64,000 nt of DNA from NCBI GenBank assembly GCA_011390345.1, contig JAABSP010000002.1, positions 1 through 64,000 on the forward strand, in the 5' to 3' direction. A program made the translations under genes and the position numbers. The notes below the pieces were generated by a model. It saw only the letters and a program-made list of their open reading frames with translations, had not been told where the DNA came from and did no database searches. Below are positions 48,243 through 63,436 of the stretch, piece after piece (the first letter of the stretch is position 1; every line of letters starts with the position of its first letter). The DNA is from Desulfobacteraceae bacterium (GTDB lineage Bacteria; Desulfobacterota; Desulfobacteria; Desulfobacterales; JAABSP01).

Positions 48243-48908
48243 ATGGGGATACAGGAAAGAAAAAAAAGAGAGAGAGAACGGCGGCGGCAGCAGATCATGG
48301 TTGCGGCAAAGCGGGTCTTTTCCGAAAAGGGGCTCAACAAGGCGACCATGGAGGACATCGCCAAAGAGGCGGAACTCAGCCCCGGAACCTTATACCTGTA
48401 TTTCAAGAACAAGGACGAACTCTTCTCGTCCCTCTCCCTGCGGATCCTTCAATACCTCAACATCCGGCTCGAGCACATCATCAGCAGCGAGCGGGAGCTG
48501 AAGGAAGGGGAGCGGATCACGGCCTTGAAAGAGGCCATGTACGATGTCTATGAGTTCGATCCGGTGATGCTGATCAACATGTTCCACCTGCAGTCGAGCG
48601 AAACGCTCAAGAACCTCTCCCCTCAGCTCCTCAAGAACATCAGAGATCTCTCCCAAAGCTCGATCCGGGCAACAGCCAAGCTCTTCACGGACGGCATCGA
48701 GAACGGGACATTTGTGGATGAACACCCCATTGCCCTGGCCGGGATCGCCTGGGCGCTATTTTCCGGGGTGGTGCTCTGGGAGGAGAGCAAGCGGATCATC
48801 GATGAGGAGAAGAACTATTTGAAAGAGACGCTCGATGTTGCGTTTGAGATATTCGAACGGGGCATCCGGCGCCGTCCGCCCCCGGATGAGCCCTCCGGCG
48901 GGGAATGA
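48243..48908 (+). CDS. TetR/AcrR family transcriptional regulator
   Basis: This 221-residue regulator has an N-terminal TetR helix-turn-helix (about 17-65: RQQIMVAAKRVFSEKGLNKATMEDIAKEAELSPGTLYLYF, interrupted only by family-typical changes). A C-terminal ligand-binding helical domain (about 85-210) follows. It starts at the ATG at 48243 with no clear ribosome site. It lies 67 bp before acetyl-CoA synthetase on the same strand and probably controls itself and the acetate genes through the repeated site in front of it. The ligand could be an acyl-CoA; not shown by sequence. Confidence 0.88.
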   Translation: MGIQERKKRERERRRQQIMVAAKRVFSEKGLNKATMEDIAKEAELSPGTLYLYFKNKDELFSSLSLRILQYLNIRLEHIISSERELKEGERITALKEAMYDVYEFDPVMLINMFHLQSSETLKNLSPQLLKNIRDLSQSSIRATAKLFTDGIENGTFVDEHPIALAGIAWALFSGVVLWEESKRIIDEEKNYLKETLDVAFEIFERGIRRRPPPDEPSGGE

Positions 48909-48975
48909 AGAAGGGCGTGTAAAATTGAGGCCAAGGTTAAAAACCCATAACAATGTTCTAAGGAGGTCAAGCAAG

Positions 48976-51015
<2,040 letters not shown>

Positions 51016-51290: not shown

Positions 51291-53105
51291 ATGAGCGGAA
51301 CCACTTGGGTTTACATATTTCTCGGACTTTACATCGTCTACTGCTTCTATTGGGGGCTGAAGGGCTATTTTACGGAGAAGACCTCTTCGGGCTATTCCAT
51401 TGCCGGCCGGTCCATCCCCTTTGCCGCATTCCTCATGGCGGCGACCGCGGCATCATTTTCAGGGTGGACATTCATCGGCCACCCGGGTCTGATCTGGCGG
51501 GACGGATTGGCTTATGCCTTCGCGTCCTTCTATGTTCTGACCATCCCCATCACTGGTACGTTCTTTTCCAAACGGACCTGGCTGCTGGGGAAACGGTACG
51601 GATTCGTCACCCCCGGCGACATGTACGCCTATTACTACAACAATGAGGCGATCCGCTGGCTGGTGGTGACCACAGCGGTTCTCTACTCGATCTTCTACTC
51701 CGCGGTCCAGCTCATGGCGGCCGGTGCGCTCTTCAACGTCATCGCGGGTGTTCCCTTCACCTTCGGCGCACTCTTTCTGGCCTTCATCGTATGGTTCTAC
51801 GTCTGCACCGGCGGCCTCAAGGCCTCCACATGGGTCGGCGTGATCCAGTTCATCCTCCTGGTGGGCGGCATCATCATCCTGGGCTTTTTCGTGATCAAAT
51901 CGAACCAGTTCGGCGGATGGGCGGCCTTCTCCGATGCCGCGAACAACTTGGGAGATCGGCAACTCGAAGTGCCTCGGGTGATCAACTTCGGCCTTGGCGG
52001 CGCTGCCGGAGAAACGGCATGGACGTCAGTGATGATCCTCACCTATATGTTCGCGTTGATGGGGATCCAGTCCTCCCCGGCCTTCACCATGTGGACATTC
52101 GGCATCAAGTCCCCCAAGCCCCTTGCCTGGCAGCAGGCCTTTATGTCCACCTTCGTGGTCGGCTTTGCCCTCTTCTTCTTCACCGCGTTCCAGGGTATGG
52201 GCTCCAAGATTCTGGAGATCGCCGGCAATGCGGAATTTCTGCGGATCGCAGAAGAGGTCGGCGGCCTGAGTGACCGCCGGATCGTTCCGATCCTGATGAA
52301 GCAGTTCCTGCCTCCGGTGATGCTCGGCGTGGTCTTCATGGGCGCGATCGCGGCCATTCACTCCACAGCCGCTCCTTACATCGGAACCGGCGGATCGATC
52401 CTGCTCCGGGATGTTTACTGGAGATACTTCAAGAAACAGAACATGACCGACTCCGAGCAGATCTGGATCAACCGGATGCTGGCCACCTTGTTGACAGTCG
52501 GCGCTCTTCTGGTGGGTCTCACATCGACTGCGGCCCTTGTCATTCTCGGGGCACTGGCTACAGCCTTCGGATTCGTCATGTATGTACTGCTGATCGGCGT
52601 CATCTGGGGCTTCAAGTTCCCCTCAAAGGGCGCGATGCTGGGTGTCATTGCCGGCATGATCGCGGTCTTCCTGAGCTACAAGATCTGGCCGAACCCTCTC
52701 TCCATGCATGCGGCCTTCTGGGGAACCTTCACCGGTATCGTCGTGGCCTACATCTGCCGCTTAGTCGGCATGAAGGATGATCAGGAGACCACGGAGCGGC
52801 AGGCTGAAATCCGGAAATGGCTCGATGATGTGGATGCGCCCTCGGAATCGGGAAAACAGTGGCGCAAGATCATGAAGATCTTCGTCCCGGTCTGGTACTT
52901 CTTCGCGATCGGTCCGGCATGTATTCTCGGCAACAGCGCGTTCTCCTTTGCCGGCTTTACGCCGGTCTGGTCATGGCAGATCTTCTGGTGGATCATCGGC
53001 ATCATCATGATGTGGGGTCTCTGCTTCAAGGCCGAGATGGCCACCACCAACGAAATCCAGATCGAGCGTGCGGACAAGGAACAGATGATCGTGGTCAAGG
53101 ATTAG
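51291..53105 (+). CDS. Sodium:solute symporter family protein (acetate-type)
   Basis: The 604-residue SSS/SLC5 permease has about 13 membrane segments. Family features are YSIAGRSIPFAAFLMAATAASFSGWTF, GFVTPGDMYAYYYNN and GVVFMGAIAAIHSTAAPYIGTGGSILLRDVYWRY (sodium-site Ser/Thr in helix 8). The extended C-terminal third, with two more helices, is typical of the VC2705-type symporters that sit near acetate regulators. It likely imports acetate or a short carboxylate with sodium; the neighbours acs and the CrbS-like kinase support this. CAGGAGG precedes the ATG. Confidence 0.87.
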   Translation: MSGTTWVYIFLGLYIVYCFYWGLKGYFTEKTSSGYSIAGRSIPFAAFLMAATAASFSGWTFIGHPGLIWRDGLAYAFASFYVLTIPITGTFFSKRTWLLGKRYGFVTPGDMYAYYYNNEAIRWLVVTTAVLYSIFYSAVQLMAAGALFNVIAGVPFTFGALFLAFIVWFYVCTGGLKASTWVGVIQFILLVGGIIILGFFVIKSNQFGGWAAFSDAANNLGDRQLEVPRVINFGLGGAAGETAWTSVMILTYMFALMGIQSSPAFTMWTFGIKSPKPLAWQQAFMSTFVVGFALFFFTAFQGMGSKILEIAGNAEFLRIAEEVGGLSDRRIVPILMKQFLPPVMLGVVFMGAIAAIHSTAAPYIGTGGSILLRDVYWRYFKKQNMTDSEQIWINRMLATLLTVGALLVGLTSTAALVILGALATAFGFVMYVLLIGVIWGFKFPSKGAMLGVIAGMIAVFLSYKIWPNPLSMHAAFWGTFTGIVVAYICRLVGMKDDQETTERQAEIRKWLDDVDAPSESGKQWRKIMKIFVPVWYFFAIGPACILGNSAFSFAGFTPVWSWQIFWWIIGIIMMWGLCFKAEMATTNEIQIERADKEQMIVVKD

Positions 53106-53138: not shown

Positions 53139-53225
53139 ATGAAACATGAAGATTATTGGATGGTAGGCATCGTCATCTTCTGCATCCTATTTGTCTCGTC
53201 CTTTGGGATGGGCCTCTGGGGCTGA
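53139..53225 (+). CDS. 28-residue single-pass membrane peptide next to the symporter
   Basis: The short frame ATG...TGA has an ideal ribosome site (AAGGAGGTAACAAG). It encodes a polar start (MKHEDYW) and a hydrophobic helix (MVGIVIFCILFVSSFGMGLW). It starts 33 bp after the symporter stop and is followed by a terminator, so it is the last gene of that transcript. Small membrane partners of SSS symporters (DUF4212 and other short subunits) occur in this position, so a stabilising or regulatory subunit is plausible. I know of no named family that fits. Confidence 0.7.
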   Translation: MKHEDYWMVGIVIFCILFVSSFGMGLWG

Positions 53226-53361: not shown

Positions 53362-53736
53362 ATGACGAAAAAAATACTCGTTGTCGATGATGAGCCCAAC
53401 ATCGTGGTGCCGCTGGTCTTTCTGATGCGGCAGAACGGCTATGAGGTTCGGGCGGTCGGCACCGGCGAAGATGCCCTCGACTGCCTTTCTGAATTCGGCC
53501 CGGACCTTATCCTTTTAGACATCATGCTTCCGGGGATGGACGGATTCGAAGTCTGCCAGGCCCTTCGGGAGATTCCCAAAGGAAAGCGGGCAAGAATCGT
53601 CTTTCTGTCGGCCATGGGCCGGGATGTGGATATCGCAAAAGGAATGGCACTCGATGTAGATGCCTATATTACAAAGCCCTTCTCCAACGCGGATGTGGTA
53701 GAGAAGGTAAAAGATCTGCTGGAAGCCTCATCATGA
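53362..53736 (+). CDS. Stand-alone response-regulator receiver
   Basis: The 124-residue CheY-like receiver has an acidic pair DDEP near residues 10-13, the phosphoacceptor Asp in LILLDIMLPGMDG, Ser/Thr in VFLSAMG, and conserved Lys in AYITKPFSN. There is no output domain. The ATG at 53362 (GGAGGGG eleven bases upstream) is preferred over the longer upstream frame that begins inside the terminator. Its stop overlaps the exonuclease-fusion gene, so it probably partners that protein or the CrbS-like kinase. Confidence 0.88.
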   Translation: MTKKILVVDDEPNIVVPLVFLMRQNGYEVRAVGTGEDALDCLSEFGPDLILLDIMLPGMDGFEVCQALREIPKGKRARIVFLSAMGRDVDIAKGMALDVDAYITKPFSNADVVEKVKDLLEASS

Positions 53737-55928
53737 CCCCAAAAAACAGATTCTGGTGGTTTTTCGCTGTCTCCATCAGCATTATCTTCATCTTCTTCAC
53801 GATTCTCTCCATCTTCTTCTGGCGGCAGCTCTCGCCCCAGGAGAAGGTCTATTTGATCACCCTGTTGAAGAGCAACTTCGCGTTTATCTTCATCGCGGTA
53901 TTTCTGATGCTCACCGGCTTCGTCTTCGCACTGGACGGGATCTTCCACAGCTATATCATCCCGGTGGTCCGGCTCTCCGAAGAGGTCTCGGTGATGCAGT
54001 CCGTCAACCCCTCCCACAGGATCAAAATCGACGGCAGCAAAGATGTGATGCGGCTGGTGAAGGTCATCAACGAGGGGGCCGACACCATCGAAGCTCTTAG
54101 GAAGAGCGTTTCCGAAAAGATCCGGACCGCAAGATCCCAAGCCGAAGAGGAGAAGAATCTTCTGGCCAGCTTCATGGCTGAACTGCCCCAGGGGGTGCTG
54201 ATCTGCAACACCGACGGGAGGATCATCTTCTATAACAAGCGCTCCCGGATCTTTCTGGAGGAGTCTCCGGAAGGTGCAGATCCGGCCGACGCACCGGGCC
54301 GCTTCATCGGCCTTGGCCGCTCCATCTTCGGCGTCATGGACAAGAACCTCATCGTCCATGCGCTGGACGTACTGACGGCAAAGATCCGAAAAAAGGAGCC
54401 GGTTCCCGTGGCCCACTTCGTGATGATGGGCGGCGGAGCAAGGCTGCTGCGGGCCGAGGCCATCCCGATTTTAAACCAGGAGGCCGCGCTCCCCATGCTG
54501 AAGAGCGGCGCCCCTTTTGCCGGCTATATCCTGATCCTCTACGACATCACCAGAGAGATCGAGAACGAGCGGCGGGTTCAATTCCTGCTTCAGTCCCTGC
54601 TGATGCGCTTTCGGGGGTCCGTTGCCGGGATCCGGTCCGCGATCGAAGCGATCATCGAATACCCGGAGATCGATGCAGATCAACTCGATCACTTCCGGCG
54701 GATCATCCACAGCGAGGCCCTCAACCTCGGCGACACGCTTGAAAAGACGACCGAAACCTACAACAGCGAGATCGAAAGCCACTGGCCCCTCGTCTACATG
54801 CCGGTCGCGGACCTGCTCGACACAGTAGGCCAGAAGGCCAAAGAGAAGCTAGGGATAAAGATGACCGTGAACAACACGGCAAAAACCTCCCATCAGGTGC
54901 GGGTGGACAGCTATTCGGCCATCATGGCGCTCCTCTTCCTGCTGAACCGGCTCAAAGAGCAGACCGGAGCTGCCGAATTTCAATGCACCTACGACCGGAG
55001 CGATCTCTTTCTTCACATCGACCTCTCCTGGAAGGGGACCGGGATTCGGATCGAGACCCTCCGGCAGTGGGAATCCCAGCCCCTGATGATCGAATCCGAG
55101 GGCACGGCGCTGACGTTGAAGGAGGTGCTGAGCCATCACGACGCGCAGGTCTGGTGCTACGCCTGCCGTGAGCCGAAAGAGCTGCCCCGGCTCCGCCTGT
55201 TTCTGCCCATAACAGCCGAAGGAGAAGTCGGTCCCGAAGAGGCCGGTGGCATCTCCATCTCCATTGAGAGCCGGCCCGAATACTATGATTTCGATCTCTT
55301 CAACCAGCCGGGGCAGAATCCGGAACTCGACGACACTCCCCTGACCGAGCTGACCTACACCGTCTTCGACACTGAGACCACGGGCCTTGATCCCAAGATT
55401 GACGAGATCATCTCCATCGGCGCGGTGCGGATCGTCAACGGCCGGCTGCTCTACAAAGAGAACTTCGATCAGCTCGTGGACCCGAAGCGCCCCCTGCCCT
55501 ATGAATCGATCCAGTTCCACGGCATCCGCGAGGAGATGCTTGCGGGCCAGCCGCCCATCGAAAAGGCGCTGCCGCTGTTCCACGCGTTTGCCTCGGATAC
55601 GATTCTGCTGGGGCACAATGCAGCCTTTGACATGCGGATGCTCCAGATGAAGGAGGCCAGTACCGGCATCCGGTTCATCAATCCGGTGCTCGACACCCTG
55701 CTGCTGTCGGCCGTGCTCCACCCCTCTCAGGAGGCGCACAAGATCGAAGCGATTGCCGAACGGCTGGGGATCCGGGTAGTGGGACGCCATACCGCGCTGG
55801 GGGATGCCATCACCACCGGGGAGATTTTCCTGAAACTCCTTCCCCTTTTGAAACAGGCTGGCCTTCACACCCTTCGGGATGCCAGAGTCGCCTCCCAGAA
55901 GACCTATTACGCGAGAATGAAATATTGA
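53733..55928 (+). CDS. Membrane pseudo-kinase fused to a DnaQ-type 3'-5' exonuclease
   Basis: The 731-residue protein has two N-terminal membrane helices (about 8-30 and 48-70) and a HAMP-like segment (about 75-130). A PAS-like domain spans 140-275. A histidine-kinase-like region (about 280-490) has no phosphoacceptor His in the helix LLMRFRGSVAGIRSAIEAII and no recognisable N box. A DEDDh exonuclease (about 540-715) is complete: D546/E548 in FDTETTG, HNAAFD at 628-633, and H686/D691 in HTALGD. The exonuclease would sit on the cytoplasmic side. Similar exonucleases are known as separate genes next to acetate-symporter genes; the fusion to a degraded sensor kinase is unusual. Substrate unknown. 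Confidence 0.85.
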   Translation: MTPKNRFWWFFAVSISIIFIFFTILSIFFWRQLSPQEKVYLITLLKSNFAFIFIAVFLMLTGFVFALDGIFHSYIIPVVRLSEEVSVMQSVNPSHRIKIDGSKDVMRLVKVINEGADTIEALRKSVSEKIRTARSQAEEEKNLLASFMAELPQGVLICNTDGRIIFYNKRSRIFLEESPEGADPADAPGRFIGLGRSIFGVMDKNLIVHALDVLTAKIRKKEPVPVAHFVMMGGGARLLRAEAIPILNQEAALPMLKSGAPFAGYILILYDITREIENERRVQFLLQSLLMRFRGSVAGIRSAIEAIIEYPEIDADQLDHFRRIIHSEALNLGDTLEKTTETYNSEIESHWPLVYMPVADLLDTVGQKAKEKLGIKMTVNNTAKTSHQVRVDSYSAIMALLFLLNRLKEQTGAAEFQCTYDRSDLFLHIDLSWKGTGIRIETLRQWESQPLMIESEGTALTLKEVLSHHDAQVWCYACREPKELPRLRLFLPITAEGEVGPEEAGGISISIESRPEYYDFDLFNQPGQNPELDDTPLTELTYTVFDTETTGLDPKIDEIISIGAVRIVNGRLLYKENFDQLVDPKRPLPYESIQFHGIREEMLAGQPPIEKALPLFHAFASDTILLGHNAAFDMRMLQMKEASTGIRFINPVLDTLLLSAVLHPSQEAHKIEAIAERLGIRVVGRHTALGDAITTGEIFLKLLPLLKQAGLHTLRDARVASQKTYYARMKY

Positions 55929-55951: not shown

Positions 55952-58282
55952 ATGAACCGCGAAGCCCTACAGTTTCTTTCCGAACTCGCCCCATTCGATA
56001 CCCTTCCCCGGGATGAGCTGGAAAGGATTGCCGATGAGATTACCGAGAAGCATGTCCCGGAAGAGGAGACCATCTCCATACAGGGAAGGACAAAAATCGA
56101 AAACATCCTTGTGGTGAAATCCGGAGCCCTCAAACTCTACTACGATCGACACGATGAGAAGATCCAGGTCTGGTTTCTGCGCCGGGGGGATATCTTCGGG
56201 GGCATTTCCGTTCTGATGAACGAGGGGATCTCCGTGCGCACCGTGGAGGTAGAGGAGAAGGCCGATCTCTACATGTTCTCCCTTGCCCTGTTTCAGGATC
56301 TATGCTCCCGCCACAAATCCTTTTACGAATACTTTTTGGAGTCCTTCAAAAAGCAGATGCTGGATGAATCCTATGCGGCAGTGATCCGGGCCAACCAGGC
56401 CATCCGTTTTCTCTCCGATATCGCGCCCTTCTCCTTTCTTCCCGGAGAGGAGATCGAGACCCTGGCTGTGGAACTCAAAAAGACCCGCTATCCAAAGGAC
56501 AAGGTGATCTTTGTCCAGGGCCGCTCAAAGGTGGAGCATCTTTACATCGTTGAAAAGGGTGCCGCAGAGCGGTATTACGAAGAGAAGGACGAGAAGATCC
56601 TGCGGGGCCTGATCGGCGAAGGGGATATCTACGGGGGGATCTCCATCCTGATGAACAACGCGGTCGCAGTCCGTACCCTGAAAACCCAGGAGACCACCTA
56701 TTTCTATCTTCTGCCCAAAGAGAAGTTTCTGGATATCTGCGGCCGGTATCCCGACTTCAGCGACTTCTTCTCCGACACCTTCGGCAAACGGATGCTGGAT
56801 CGGACATATGCCGAGGTCGTCACCAAGGCGATCCGGCCCAAGGAGGAGGGGAGCCACTATTTCAACCGCCCCTTAGGGGAGATCTACAGCACCGATATCC
56901 TCTACTGCTCGCCTTTGACCTCCATCCAGAAAGCGGCCGAAATGATGAGCGAAAAGAAGTACAGCGCCATCTTTGTCCGGGATTCCGTGGAGGAGTATGT
57001 CGGGATCGTGACGGACAACGACCTCCGGCGGAAGGTGATCGCCCGTGGTTACGACATCAAAAAACCGGTCAAGGATATCATGTCCTACCCCCTTCGGACC
57101 ATTCCGGCCCAGGCCATGATCTTCGAAACCCTCATGGAGATGGTGGCTGCAAACGTGAAGCATCTGGCAGTGACGGACGCGGATGACCAGGTGGTGGGGC
57201 TGGTGAGCAACCGGGATCTGCTCACGGCCCACGGCCAGTCCCCTTTTGTCTTCATCCGGGAGATCGCGGCAGCCCAAACCTTTGACGAGATCACAGAGCG
57301 GCGCAAAGGGCTGCCGGCCATCATCGGCAACCTGATCCGCAGCGGCGCAAAAGCCAACAACGTCACCAGCTTCATCACCGCGGTCTCCGACACCATCCTG
57401 GAGAAGCTGATCCAGATGGCCTTGGACGAACTGGGCCCTCCCCCGGTAAACTTCGCATTCATGATCATGGGCAGCGAGGGCCGGAAAGAGCAGACCCTTA
57501 AGACAGACCAGGACAACGCGATCATCTTCGAAGATGTTGCGGAAAACCTCGGCGAGGAGGTTCGGGCCTACTTTCTGAGCTTCGGGGAGAAGGTCTGCAA
57601 CCGGTTGAACGATGCCGGGTACGACTTCTGCGAGGGGAATGTGATGGCCAAAAATCCGATGTGGTGCCAGCCCCTGAGCATCTGGAAGCAGCATTTCTCC
57701 GGCTGGATACATGCGGCCGAGCCCGAAGACCTTCTGCAGGCGAGCATCTTCTTCGACTTCCGAAGGGCCTACGGCGACGAGGATTTGGTCGAATCCCTCC
57801 GGGATTTTCTCTTCAACTCCCTGCTGGGCTGGACCGGCTTCTTCCGCCACATGACCGAAAATGCGCTCTACTTCAAGCCGCCCCTGGGCTTTTTCCGGAA
57901 CTTCGTGGTCGAGTCCAAGGGCCAGCACAAGAACAAGTTCGACATCAAGAGTGCGATGATGCCCATTGTCGATTTTGCCAGAATCTATTCGCTCCAGCAC
58001 AGCATCGACGAGACCAACACCCTGGAGCGGCTCCACCAGCTCTATATAAAGGATGTGATCTCCTGGGAGGAGTATAATGAACTGGAACAGGGGTACGGCT
58101 TTCTGATGCAGATCCGCTTCGTCCGGCAGGTGACCGCGGTCCTGGAAGAGGGGGAAAAACCCGACAACTTTATCAACCCCAAGAAGCTCTCCAACATAGA
58201 GCAGACCATGGTCAAGGAGATCTTCAAGCGGATCGAGAAGTATCAGTCGAAATTAAATTTTGATTTTATAGGGATAATCTGA
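55952..58282 (+). CDS. cNMP-CBS-DUF294 nucleotidyltransferase-like protein
   Basis: The 776-residue protein starts at the ATG at 55952 behind AGGAGA; an earlier TTG is unlikely. It has two cNMP-fold domains (about 10-130 and 150-280) and a CBS pair (about 300-420; SAIFVRDSVEEYVGIVTDND and HLAVTDADDQVVGLVSNRDL). The GlnD-like nucleotidyltransferase domain DUF294 (about 450-600) has G507-S508 and the acidic pair D519/D521 in GSEGRKEQTLKTDQD. A DUF294 C-terminal helical domain (about 610-770) follows. It is commonly next to acetate-type symporters. Nucleotide or energy sensing is likely; target unknown. Confidence 0.85.
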   Translation: MNREALQFLSELAPFDTLPRDELERIADEITEKHVPEEETISIQGRTKIENILVVKSGALKLYYDRHDEKIQVWFLRRGDIFGGISVLMNEGISVRTVEVEEKADLYMFSLALFQDLCSRHKSFYEYFLESFKKQMLDESYAAVIRANQAIRFLSDIAPFSFLPGEEIETLAVELKKTRYPKDKVIFVQGRSKVEHLYIVEKGAAERYYEEKDEKILRGLIGEGDIYGGISILMNNAVAVRTLKTQETTYFYLLPKEKFLDICGRYPDFSDFFSDTFGKRMLDRTYAEVVTKAIRPKEEGSHYFNRPLGEIYSTDILYCSPLTSIQKAAEMMSEKKYSAIFVRDSVEEYVGIVTDNDLRRKVIARGYDIKKPVKDIMSYPLRTIPAQAMIFETLMEMVAANVKHLAVTDADDQVVGLVSNRDLLTAHGQSPFVFIREIAAAQTFDEITERRKGLPAIIGNLIRSGAKANNVTSFITAVSDTILEKLIQMALDELGPPPVNFAFMIMGSEGRKEQTLKTDQDNAIIFEDVAENLGEEVRAYFLSFGEKVCNRLNDAGYDFCEGNVMAKNPMWCQPLSIWKQHFSGWIHAAEPEDLLQASIFFDFRRAYGDEDLVESLRDFLFNSLLGWTGFFRHMTENALYFKPPLGFFRNFVVESKGQHKNKFDIKSAMMPIVDFARIYSLQHSIDETNTLERLHQLYIKDVISWEEYNELEQGYGFLMQIRFVRQVTAVLEEGEKPDNFINPKKLSNIEQTMVKEIFKRIEKYQSKLNFDFIGII

Positions 58283-60437: not shown

Positions 60438-60683
60438 ATGCCGGAAACCCGACCCAAAACCCGACGCCTTTCAGCCCTCTTTCTCCTGGGCTGTCTTCTC
60501 TTCAACTATCCCATTCTCTCGCTCTTCAACCGGGAGATCTTCCCCTTTGGCATCCCGCTGCTCTACCTCTATCTCTTTTCGGTCTGGCTCCTGCTGATTC
60601 TGCTGACAGCCCTGGGCGCTCATTCAAAGACCTCGTCTCCGCCTCCGGAGATCTCCGATATTTCAAAAAGGTCCCGGAAATGA
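60438..60683 (+). CDS. Small membrane protein before the CrbS-like kinase
   Basis: This 81-residue protein has a short basic start, two membrane helices (about 11-35 and 38-62; LSALFLLGCLLFNYPILSLF and LLYLYLFSVWLLLILLTAL) and a Ser/Pro/Lys-rich tail. Such two-helix proteins often precede kinases with solute-symporter sensors, though I cannot name the family. Its TGA overlaps the kinase ATG by four bases, indicating coupled translation and possible association in the membrane. Confidence 0.75.
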   Translation: MPETRPKTRRLSALFLLGCLLFNYPILSLFNREIFPFGIPLLYLYLFSVWLLLILLTALGAHSKTSSPPPEISDISKRSRK

Positions 60684-63436
60684 TGATCGAAGAGGGCGTG
60701 GTCCTTTTTGCATCGATCAGCTATATTGGGCTTCTCTTTGGCGTGGCCTATATCGGAGACCGCCGCGCGGACGAGGGGCGGAGCATCATCAGCAATCCCT
60801 ACATCTACACCCTTTCTCTTGCGGTCTACTGCACGGCCTGGACCTACTACGGCAGTGTGGGAAGAGCCGCAGGCTCAGGTCCTGGCTTTCTTCCGGTCTA
60901 TATCGGCCCGACGCTGGTTGCGACCCTGGGCTGGCTGCTGCTCAGAAAAATCATCCGGATCAGCAAAATCCATAGGATCACCTCCATTGCCGATTTCATC
61001 GCGTCCCGGTACGGCAAGAGCACAGTAGTGGGAGGCGTTGTGACGGTGATGGCCGTCATCGGGATCATCCCCTACATCGCGCTCCAGCTCAAGGCGGTCT
61101 CGGTCAGCTTTCTAATCGTCCGGGAATACCCGAACCTCGTCAAACCCGGCTATTTCACCACCGTTCCGATCTTTCAGGACACCTCCTTCTATGCGGCCCT
61201 GCTGCTGGCGCTCTTCGCTATCATCTTCGGTACCCGCCATCTGGAGGCGACCGAGCGCCATGAGGGGCTGGTCGCGGCCATAGCGTTCGAATCCCTGGTC
61301 AAGCTCATCGCCTTTACCGCGGTGGGCATCTTCGTGGTCTATTCGATCCATGACGGATTCTCAGATCTCATGACAGAGTTTCGAAAGACGCCAAAGATCC
61401 AATCCCTTCTGGAACTCGGTCATGCGCCGGGAACCTATGCGGACTGGGGAATCAGCATCTTTCTCTCCATGCTCGCGTTTCTCCTCCTCCCCCGGCAGTT
61501 TCACATCGCAGTGGTGGAGAATGTGGATGAGGACCACCTGAACCGAGCGGTCTGGCTCTTCCCTCTCTATCTTCTGGCCATCAACATCTTTGTGCTGCCG
61601 ATCGCGGGCGCGGGTCTTCTCCGCTTCTCCGGAATGGGCATCGAAGCCGACACCTTCGTGCTCACCCTGCCCATCTCGGAAGAGCAGGGGATCATCACAC
61701 TGCTGGTCTATATCGGCGGCATGTCGGCCGCGACCGGCATGGTGATCGTGGAGACGGTCGCGCTCTCGACCATGATCTCCAATGATCTGGTGATGCCGGT
61801 GCTGCTGAGGCTCCACTTTCTCCGCCTCCTCCACCGGGGAGAGCTGAAGGGGCTTCTCCTCTTCATCCGCAGAGCCAGCATCATTCTCGTTCTCCTGTGC
61901 GCGTATACATACTTTCGCTTTATCGGCGAGTTCTACGAGCTGGTCTCCATCGGTCTTGTCTCCTTTACCGCGGTGGCCCAGTTCGGCCCGTCCCTCATCG
62001 GAGGAATTTTCTGGAAGGGAGGAAACCGCAAGGGGGCCCTCTGCGGCCTCATCTCAGGCTTTCTCCTCTGGGGCTACACCCTGGTGGTTCCCTCCATGGC
62101 ACAGACCGGGCTGATTCCGGATCACATCATCACCCACGGCCCCTGGGACATCGGATGGCTCAAACCCTACGCCCTCTTCGGCCTGACCGATTTCAACCCC
62201 ATCTCCCATGCGGTCTTCTGGAGCCTGCTGGTCAATCTGTCGGCCTATATCGGGGTCTCCCTCTTCACCCGAACCGATACCCTGGAGCACACCCAGGCGA
62301 CCCTTTTTGTGGATGTCTTCCGATATTCGGAAGATACCTCCCCTCTATGGCGGGGAACCGCGTCGGTTCCGGATCTCCATTCACTTTTGGAACGATTTCT
62401 GGGAAGCGCACGGGCAGAAGAAGCCTTCTCCCTTTATGCACAGCGCCATCCGGCCGCGGGTCATCCGCTGGAGGCGGGCGAAGAAAAGACCGCAGACTCC
62501 GGGCTGGTGGACTATGCGGAAAAGCTTCTGGCCGGCGTTATCGGCTCGGCCTCGGCCCGGGTGATGGTGGCCTCGGTAGTCAAGGAGGAGCCCCTGGGAA
62601 TGGCCGAGGTGATGCACATCTTAGACGAAACCCGCCAGGTAATCGCCTACAGCCGGGAGCTGGAGCGGACCACCGAGGAACTGGTCGCGGCAAACGAGCG
62701 GCTCAAAGAGCTGGACCGGCTCAAGGACGAGTTCATCTCCACCGTCACCCACGAACTGCGCACCCCCCTCACCTCAATCCGGGCACTCGCGGAAATCCTC
62801 CACGACACCCCGGACCTCGACCTCTCCCAGAAAGAGGAGTTCACGGAAATCATCATCAAGGAGACGGACCGTCTCACCCGGCTGATCACCCAGGTGCTGG
62901 ATATCCAGAAGATCGAATCCGGAAGGATCGAATGGCAGATCACCGACGTAGACCTCAATTCGGTGGTCAAAGATGCGGTTTTAACGACCCGTCAGTTGAT
63001 CGAGGAGAAAAAGCTCCATCTGGATGTAAACCTTTCTGAAACAATTCCCATCATCAAAGGGGATCAGGACCGGCTTATCCAGGTCATGGTCAACCTGATC
63101 TCCAATGCCGTCAAATTCTGCGATCCCGGGGGAAAGATCGAAATCCGAACGGAAATGAAACCCCAATCAATCGGCGTGAGCATCATCGATGACGGCATCG
63201 GCATCAGCACGGAAAACCAGAAGATCATCTTCGAGAAGTTTCAGCAGATCAAGGAGGCAGGCCGCGGCCGCCCCCCGGGAAGCGGCCTGGGACTTGCCAT
63301 TACCAAGCGGATCATTGATTTCCACAGAGGAACCGTTCAAGTACGGAGCCGGCCCGATGAAGGCTCGACCTTCACCTTTTTCCTCCCCCTTCCGGCCCAA
63401 ACCCGACCCGACAATGAGAAACCGGAAGCCCCATAA
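60680..63436 (+). CDS. CrbS-like histidine kinase with SSS-type membrane sensor
   Basis: The 918-residue protein has about 13 membrane segments of SSS/SLC5 type (about 1-540, e.g. YTLSLAVYCTAWTYYGSVG, ITSIADFIASRYGKS). A linker of about 120 residues leads to the kinase core: HisKA with H691 in VTHELRTPLTSIRALAE, N box NLISNAVKF, G1 DDGIGIS and G2 GSGLGLAITKRII. This is the architecture of CrbS, which with CrbR controls acetyl-CoA synthetase in Vibrio and Pseudomonas. No CrbR-type LuxR regulator is nearby. The receiver at 53362 is the only stand-alone partner candidate. Acetate sensing is inferred from the cluster. Confidence 0.88.
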   Translation: MMIEEGVVLFASISYIGLLFGVAYIGDRRADEGRSIISNPYIYTLSLAVYCTAWTYYGSVGRAAGSGPGFLPVYIGPTLVATLGWLLLRKIIRISKIHRITSIADFIASRYGKSTVVGGVVTVMAVIGIIPYIALQLKAVSVSFLIVREYPNLVKPGYFTTVPIFQDTSFYAALLLALFAIIFGTRHLEATERHEGLVAAIAFESLVKLIAFTAVGIFVVYSIHDGFSDLMTEFRKTPKIQSLLELGHAPGTYADWGISIFLSMLAFLLLPRQFHIAVVENVDEDHLNRAVWLFPLYLLAINIFVLPIAGAGLLRFSGMGIEADTFVLTLPISEEQGIITLLVYIGGMSAATGMVIVETVALSTMISNDLVMPVLLRLHFLRLLHRGELKGLLLFIRRASIILVLLCAYTYFRFIGEFYELVSIGLVSFTAVAQFGPSLIGGIFWKGGNRKGALCGLISGFLLWGYTLVVPSMAQTGLIPDHIITHGPWDIGWLKPYALFGLTDFNPISHAVFWSLLVNLSAYIGVSLFTRTDTLEHTQATLFVDVFRYSEDTSPLWRGTASVPDLHSLLERFLGSARAEEAFSLYAQRHPAAGHPLEAGEEKTADSGLVDYAEKLLAGVIGSASARVMVASVVKEEPLGMAEVMHILDETRQVIAYSRELERTTEELVAANERLKELDRLKDEFISTVTHELRTPLTSIRALAEILHDTPDLDLSQKEEFTEIIIKETDRLTRLITQVLDIQKIESGRIEWQITDVDLNSVVKDAVLTTRQLIEEKKLHLDVNLSETIPIIKGDQDRLIQVMVNLISNAVKFCDPGGKIEIRTEMKPQSIGVSIIDDGIGISTENQKIIFEKFQQIKEAGRGRPPGSGLGLAITKRIIDFHRGTVQVRSRPDEGSTFTFFLPLPAQTRPDNEKPEAP

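Follow-up and report, generated by a model that had tools for sequence, protein, structure and literature searches.

The locus examined here raises the question of what controls an exonuclease that is built into a membrane sensor protein whose kinase core appears to be dead. It lies in a 64,000-nucleotide stretch of contig JAABSP010000002.1 from a Desulfobacteraceae bacterium (GCA_011390345.1; here called the window). A preliminary description of this DNA had proposed a membrane sensor pseudokinase fused to an intact DEDDh exonuclease in an acetate locus, with the dead kinase serving as a regulatory scaffold that gates the nuclease. The proposed fusion is confirmed by the open reading frame, the profile comparison, the AlphaFold2 model of a DHp-CA core and the catalytic residues, and the protein, termed EXO, is considered below together with its neighbours (Table 1).

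Table 1. Features of the EXO locus, with positions in the window.
Feature	EXO residues	Position	Strand	Remarks
Acetyl-CoA synthetase-like ORF		48835..51015	+	named from sequence; orthologues recur at EXO loci
SSS-family sodium/solute symporter		51291..53105	+	acetate-type by context
Membrane peptide, 28 aa		53139..53225	+	single helix; between symporter and RR; kept in relatives
Response regulator (RR), single-domain (CheY-like)		53362..53736	+	124 aa; phosphoacceptor D53; 4-bp overlap with EXO
EXO (pseudokinase-exonuclease)		53733..55928	+	731 aa; exact ORF
EXO TM/HAMP-like part	1-130	53733..54122	+	model helices 3-32, 49-89
EXO PAS-like domain	131-272	54123..54548	+	PAS_4/PAS_8 below cut-off
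EXO pseudo-DHp	273-345	54549..54767	+	phosphoacceptor His absent (M291)
EXO pseudo-CA	346-497	54768..55223	+	N box, G1 Asp lost (F402, R406, W433)
EXO linker	498-535
(R)PEYYDFDLF motif, conserved	513-523	55269..55301	+	immediately N-terminal to exonuclease
EXO DEDDh exonuclease	536-731	55338..55925	+	D546, E548, D633, H686, D691
DUF294 protein		55952..58282	+	double cNMP-binding/CBS/DUF294 nucleotidyltransferase-like; alternative TTG start 55925
Live SSS-domain histidine kinase		60680..63436	+	HisKA + HATPase_c; proposed cognate kinase

In Pfam searches EXO is recognised by RNase_T (residues 544-699, 2e-33) and has no match to HisKA or HATPase_c; its middle third is hit by no Pfam model at all. 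A family profile built from residues 270-500 nevertheless matches the kinase encoded at 60680-63436 along its whole HisKA-HATPase core (210 aligned columns, E 7e-20), and AlphaFold2 folds this part as DHp-CA, with a pLDDT of 83 in the full-length model and 91 when the core is modelled by itself. Among the chains ranked by Foldseek, to which the structural comparison applied, the best matches of the core are WalK, VicK, PrrB, HK853 and DivL (Foldseek, VIA-align). Based on profile and model, the middle third of EXO is thus a complete histidine-kinase core that is predicted to be catalytically dead, with F402, R406 and W433 in place of the residues that serve ATP and Mg. In front of it, the HAMP-like region scores as Pfam HAMP in a relative from another family, the PAS match at residues 143-175 is sub-threshold in EXO and PAS_4 and PAS are weakly matched in a relative, and for the PAS-like part WalK and VicK align with EXO at full length in Foldseek.

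The C-terminal domain has the DnaQ-like fold of DEDDh exonucleases, superposing on PolC with a Z of 24.5 and 1.8 A over 192 residues and also matching DnaQ exonucleases. It shares this fold and all five catalytic residues with the PolC exonuclease domain, DnaQ and the PRK07883 group. Unlike the known DEDDh/DnaQ exonucleases, EXO is membrane-anchored, is fused to a sensor pseudokinase, carries the PEYYDFDLF motif in front of the domain and lacks any partner domain of the polymerase, helicase or endonuclease type. The motif is mostly retained by relatives that lack the core and could be a latch on the exonuclease active site.

The fusion, which had been regarded as unusual, belongs to a large conserved family. 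A single collection at species level contains 506 loci that encode a relative, spread over Desulfobacterota, Proteobacteria and Chloroflexi. Full-length relatives are common, so that a rare fusion or an assembly artefact can be rejected. The best 80 of the 506 are 39-54% identical to EXO across most of the protein, come from Desulfobacterota, Beta- and Gammaproteobacteria and Chloroflexi, and include plasmid-borne copies in Paracoccus and Cupriavidus. Their database label is 'exonuclease domain-containing protein' and nothing more, and the matches of a defence-system library to EXO are confined to two candidate exonuclease models and the generic DEDDh domain. In the literature that could be searched, no paper was found that describes the fusion, with or without a role. 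What is new is that EXO belongs to a module; if the pathway set out below is correct, this would assign a role to a protein of hundreds of species that is labelled only as an exonuclease.

A family alignment of 111 rows, in which a few genomes are represented twice, shows both the loss of kinase residues and the retention of nuclease residues. The phosphoacceptor His and the N-box Asn are found in none of the 111, bearing out the earlier reading of the window's own protein. Glu or Arg predominates at the His position (M291 in EXO), the N-box positions (F402, R406) are aromatic and mostly Arg, and the G1-box Asp position (W433) is Trp in 109. D546, E548, D633, H686 and D691 are invariant in all 111, as had been noted for EXO itself, and even members about 30% identical, from other families of the phylum, retain DEDDh but are without the His, the N box and the G1 Asp. 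The possibility of an intact kinase that uses a displaced His is rejected family-wide, since none was found in the alignment or among the distant members; two of 67 members from the order (G126, G151) do have a His at the phosphoacceptor position, with the usual Arg at 294 missing. The core has conserved residues of its own (D430, W433, G435, W446, H469 and W474) and retains 220-225 positions in all RR-bearing members of the order. These features, together with its persistence in Chloroflexi, Proteobacteria and Desulfobacterota, already disfavour the reading of EXO as an evolutionary relic, an exonuclease with a neutral, decaying sensor-kinase stub, which the loss of every kinase catalytic motif would suit and which we regard as extremely improbable.

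The RR matches Response_reg alone in Pfam and has no output domain. In 104 of the 109 loci with enough upstream sequence it is the gene immediately before EXO, most commonly overlapping it by 4 bp, and a live SSS-kinase is the usual companion of the pair. The typical order in Betaproteobacteria and Chloroflexi is SSS-kinase, RR, EXO, and Paracoccus denitrificans has DUF294, a small ORF, SSS-kinase, RR and EXO in a single gene run that appears to be an operon. The symporter part of the window's kinase does not reach the Pfam SSF model, which its Paracoccus relative matches weakly. RR, EXO and kinase are also contiguous in distant families, including those where the kinase carries GAF instead of SSS. 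In one such family (f117; L211:4272-5660 and relatives) the kinase beside RR-EXO has GAF in place of the SSS part, so that the sensor was exchanged and the module retained.

The metabolic setting can be judged from the same neighbourhood. The symporter had been taken for a VC2705-type protein, an identity that is not established, as it scores 66.8 bits against TIGR03648 (VC_2705), far under the cut-off of 320.75. The broader assignment to an acetate locus stands as a probable one, drawn from the acetyl-CoA synthetase and SSS symporter genes upstream and the CrbS-like kinase downstream. With CrbS/CrbR (MxtR/ErdR), CbrA and the SLC5/STAC kinases the window shares a symporter-domain kinase near acetate or pyruvate genes. 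The window's kinase differs from the CrbS/CbrA-type kinases compared in not being hybrid. The RR has no DNA-binding output domain of the kind expected in a CrbS/CrbR system; CrbR activates transcription, whereas the apparent target of the window's RR is the pseudokinase-exonuclease. One target of MxtR/ErdR in Pseudomonas putida is PP_0353, an RNase_T protein whose gene shares an operon with that of the CBS-domain protein PP_0354 and which plays a part in growth on pyruvate (PMC9927547). This pair resembles the EXO locus in joining an RNase_T exonuclease to a CBS-domain protein in an acetate/pyruvate regulon. PP_0353 is reported as a transcription-controlled RNase_T protein with no sensor fusion described (PMC9927547), whereas EXO is fused. 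By analogy, the P. putida case supports a link of such exonucleases to carboxylate use and not direct control.

The origin of the dead core also points to the neighbouring kinase. Using the 30 best of about 105 HisKA matches in the window's genome, the EXO-core profile gave 49.8 bits with the SSS-kinase and at most 9.2 bits with the other 29. In DHp the consensus sequences agree at 16 of 35 informative positions, a larger share than the 17 of 59 in CA. By the profile scores the SSS-kinase is clearly the closest relative of the core among the 30 kinases tested, and the core is most simply explained as having arisen by duplication of this live kinase.

The kinase, the RR and the core are also inherited together. 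Across the 67 genomes of the order that carry EXO, each of the 48 with the kinase also has an RR whose Asp is intact, while the 19 without it comprised 11 with no RR, five with an RR carrying D53E/D10H and three with an intact RR (Fisher 9e-13 for kinase against RR, ignoring relatedness). Two of the latter three genomes are 81-84% complete, and in G170 the RR is intact and the kinase was not found. In some kinase-positive genomes the RR does not adjoin EXO and lies elsewhere, beside the kinase in two of them. The five genomes with D53E/D10H form one clade, in family f69 (L111, L119-L122), with the altered RR next to EXO and no detectable SSS-kinase; such an RR is possibly locked or phosphorylation-independent.

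A further pattern concerns the core itself. Counting a core as shortened when it is deleted or cut by at least 30 residues, across the order and more distant genomes, 11 of 21 genomes without RR have a shortened core as against none of 69 with RR (Fisher 8e-9), and by family the counts are 7 of 12 against 0 of 34 (1.5e-5), both tests ignoring relatedness. A looser cut that would have added G004 and G029, which lack the RR and have lost little of the core, was dropped (13 of 21), because distant RR-bearing members reach only 206-213 aligned core positions. The deleted part differs between lineages (one family has lost DHp, two genomes have lost mainly CA, and others both), which is consistent with separate deletions from a full-length ancestor. 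The sensor and the exonuclease residues persist in the core-deleted genomes, although in G076 the exonuclease is split by a stop. Where kinase and RR are both missing, the dead core is often deleted and the sensor and exonuclease remain. For the core-less G344 and G453 the absence of kinase and RR was predicted before their loci were read, and was then found. Such core losses along with the RR, and the D53E exchange where the kinase is missing, would, if the pathway set out below is correct, serve as natural experiments on the retention of a receptor role by a pseudokinase. Independent losses are thinly supported by the tree: the best tree has six changes of RR presence, of which only two are forced by starred branches, and an independent-pairs test has only two pairs on such branches, a number too small to reach significance.

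Considered together, these observations favour a three-part module with EXO as its effector, in which a signal would pass from the SSS-kinase through the RR to the dead core and on to the exonuclease, and we hold this pathway with moderate confidence as the probable one. On sensing a small carboxylate, which is probably acetate or pyruvate, the live SSS-kinase would phosphorylate the RR, and the RR, without an output domain, would dock on the pseudo-DHp/CA core of EXO. As a paralogue of the SSS-kinase, the core would have kept the docking surface and lost the phosphoacceptor and the ATP chemistry. Docking, together with input from EXO's own membrane/PAS part, would alter the helices of the dimer and thereby either free or block the C-terminal DEDDh exonuclease, whose presumed substrates are RNA or DNA 3' ends. 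The earlier interpretation is thus partly supported, and its suggestion of a dead kinase gating a nuclease is sharpened by the kinship to the SSS-kinase and the conserved RR. The pathway is supported by the fixed place of the RR upstream of EXO, its intact presence in every kinase-bearing genome of the order, the kinship of the core, the restriction of core loss to genomes without RR, the prediction that held for G344 and G453, the contiguous genes of distant families and the precedent of DivL and DivK (PMC4211667). It is weakened by three families (f130, f149 and f163) that keep the core without a detectable RR, by the nearly complete cores of G004 and G029, which lack the RR, by G170 with its intact RR and no kinase found, by the few independent losses on the tree and by a mutual-information scan that did not favour DHp. 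In that scan (MI-APC; 147 RR-EXO pairs, Neff 72) the top 20 couplings were enriched 2.8-fold for PAS and not for DHp, and are taken as phylogeny-dominated.

In the Caulobacter pseudokinase DivL, DHp-CA is an input that reads the phosphorylated single-domain regulator DivK, and alphaproteobacteria without DivK are often without the DHp-CA of DivL (PMC4211667). EXO resembles DivL in its TM and PAS parts, its replaced phosphoacceptor His and its pairing with a single-domain RR, and may also resemble it in the loss of DHp-CA from lineages without the RR, with the reservation that EXO has three exceptional families and few independent losses. DivL keeps its N, G1 and G2 boxes, whereas those of EXO are degenerate, and DivL acts on a separate kinase, CckA, whereas the output of EXO would be the fused exonuclease and its RR docking is inferred. 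If the pathway is correct, a receiver domain controls an exonuclease via a dead kinase, an output absent from the papers that could be searched, and the free receiver carries the signal of a live transporter-kinase to that kinase's own dead, exonuclease-bearing copy. A nutrient signal may then switch the exonuclease directly and not through gene transcription. The wider claim, that a two-component pathway of wide distribution has as its output the direct trimming of RNA or DNA 3' ends, controlled by phosphorylation and with no transcription factor, is possible and is advanced tentatively.

EXO could instead be gated by its own membrane/PAS sensor, with the dead core as a structural relay and the RR acting elsewhere, for example on the DUF294 or a transport protein. 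The persistence of TM, PAS and exonuclease in core-less relatives is in keeping with this, as are two genomes (G010, G183) that lack EXO and still have kinase and RR adjacent, and the three families with a core and no RR. In these families (eight genomes) no RR orthologue is detectable; their single-domain RRs are weak matches (38-45%), and one that was inspected lies in a CheA/CheW cluster. Both SSS proteins examined from them have SSS-GAF-SpoIIE in place of the SSS-kinase, so that the core in these families may respond to a different input or do no more than pass on the state of the sensor. Gating by the sensor alone is nevertheless unlikely overall, as the RR keeps its position beside EXO across phyla, the core is never truncated in the 69 genomes with RR, and it is most akin to the presumed kinase of that RR. 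In the two proteins just mentioned (L227:5491-8727 and L228:4265-7564) the histidine kinase is absent, and the membrane domain of SSS type is joined to GAF and a phosphatase of SpoIIE type.

A further alternative concerns the substrate and can be combined with the pathway from SSS-kinase through RR to EXO: the exonuclease may act on dinucleotides or another nucleotide second messenger, or may reverse the DUF294 nucleotidyltransferase, with addition opposed to removal. The DUF294 protein, directly downstream of EXO in 34 of 75 loci, carries cNMP-binding domains and what appears to be an NTase GS...DxD motif, and the exonuclease/CBS-protein operon of P. putida under MxtR/ErdR (PMC9927547) points the same way. 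The nearest domains in sequence and structure are, however, proofreading-type exonucleases of the PolC/DnaQ kind, and this reading is considered doubtful. A side observation from Rhodoferax (L093:13944-14675, minus strand) is a free-standing exonuclease beside a DUF294-like gene, at a locus that also has a fused EXO; it belongs to PRK09145, a DEDDh group other than that of EXO.

It has also to be asked if the dead core could sequester or dephosphorylate the RR, so that EXO controls the kinase-RR pathway and the exonuclease is a second, independent output. The pseudo-DHp keeps the fold of RR-docking kinases and the core is akin to the partner SSS-kinase, as this would require. The phosphatase-type motif of HisKA beside the His is lost, though, with Gly or Arg at H+1 and Ala or Ser at H+4, and the RR has no output domain to be controlled, which makes such a role very unlikely. 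The preferred reading thus remains that of EXO as the effector of the kinase and RR.

Lastly, the short gene between the symporter and the RR (53139-53225, plus strand) had previously been unlisted. It encodes the peptide MKHEDYWMVGIVIFCILFVSSFGMGLWG, has a good ribosome-binding site, and is present in a diverged version in seven other loci examined.
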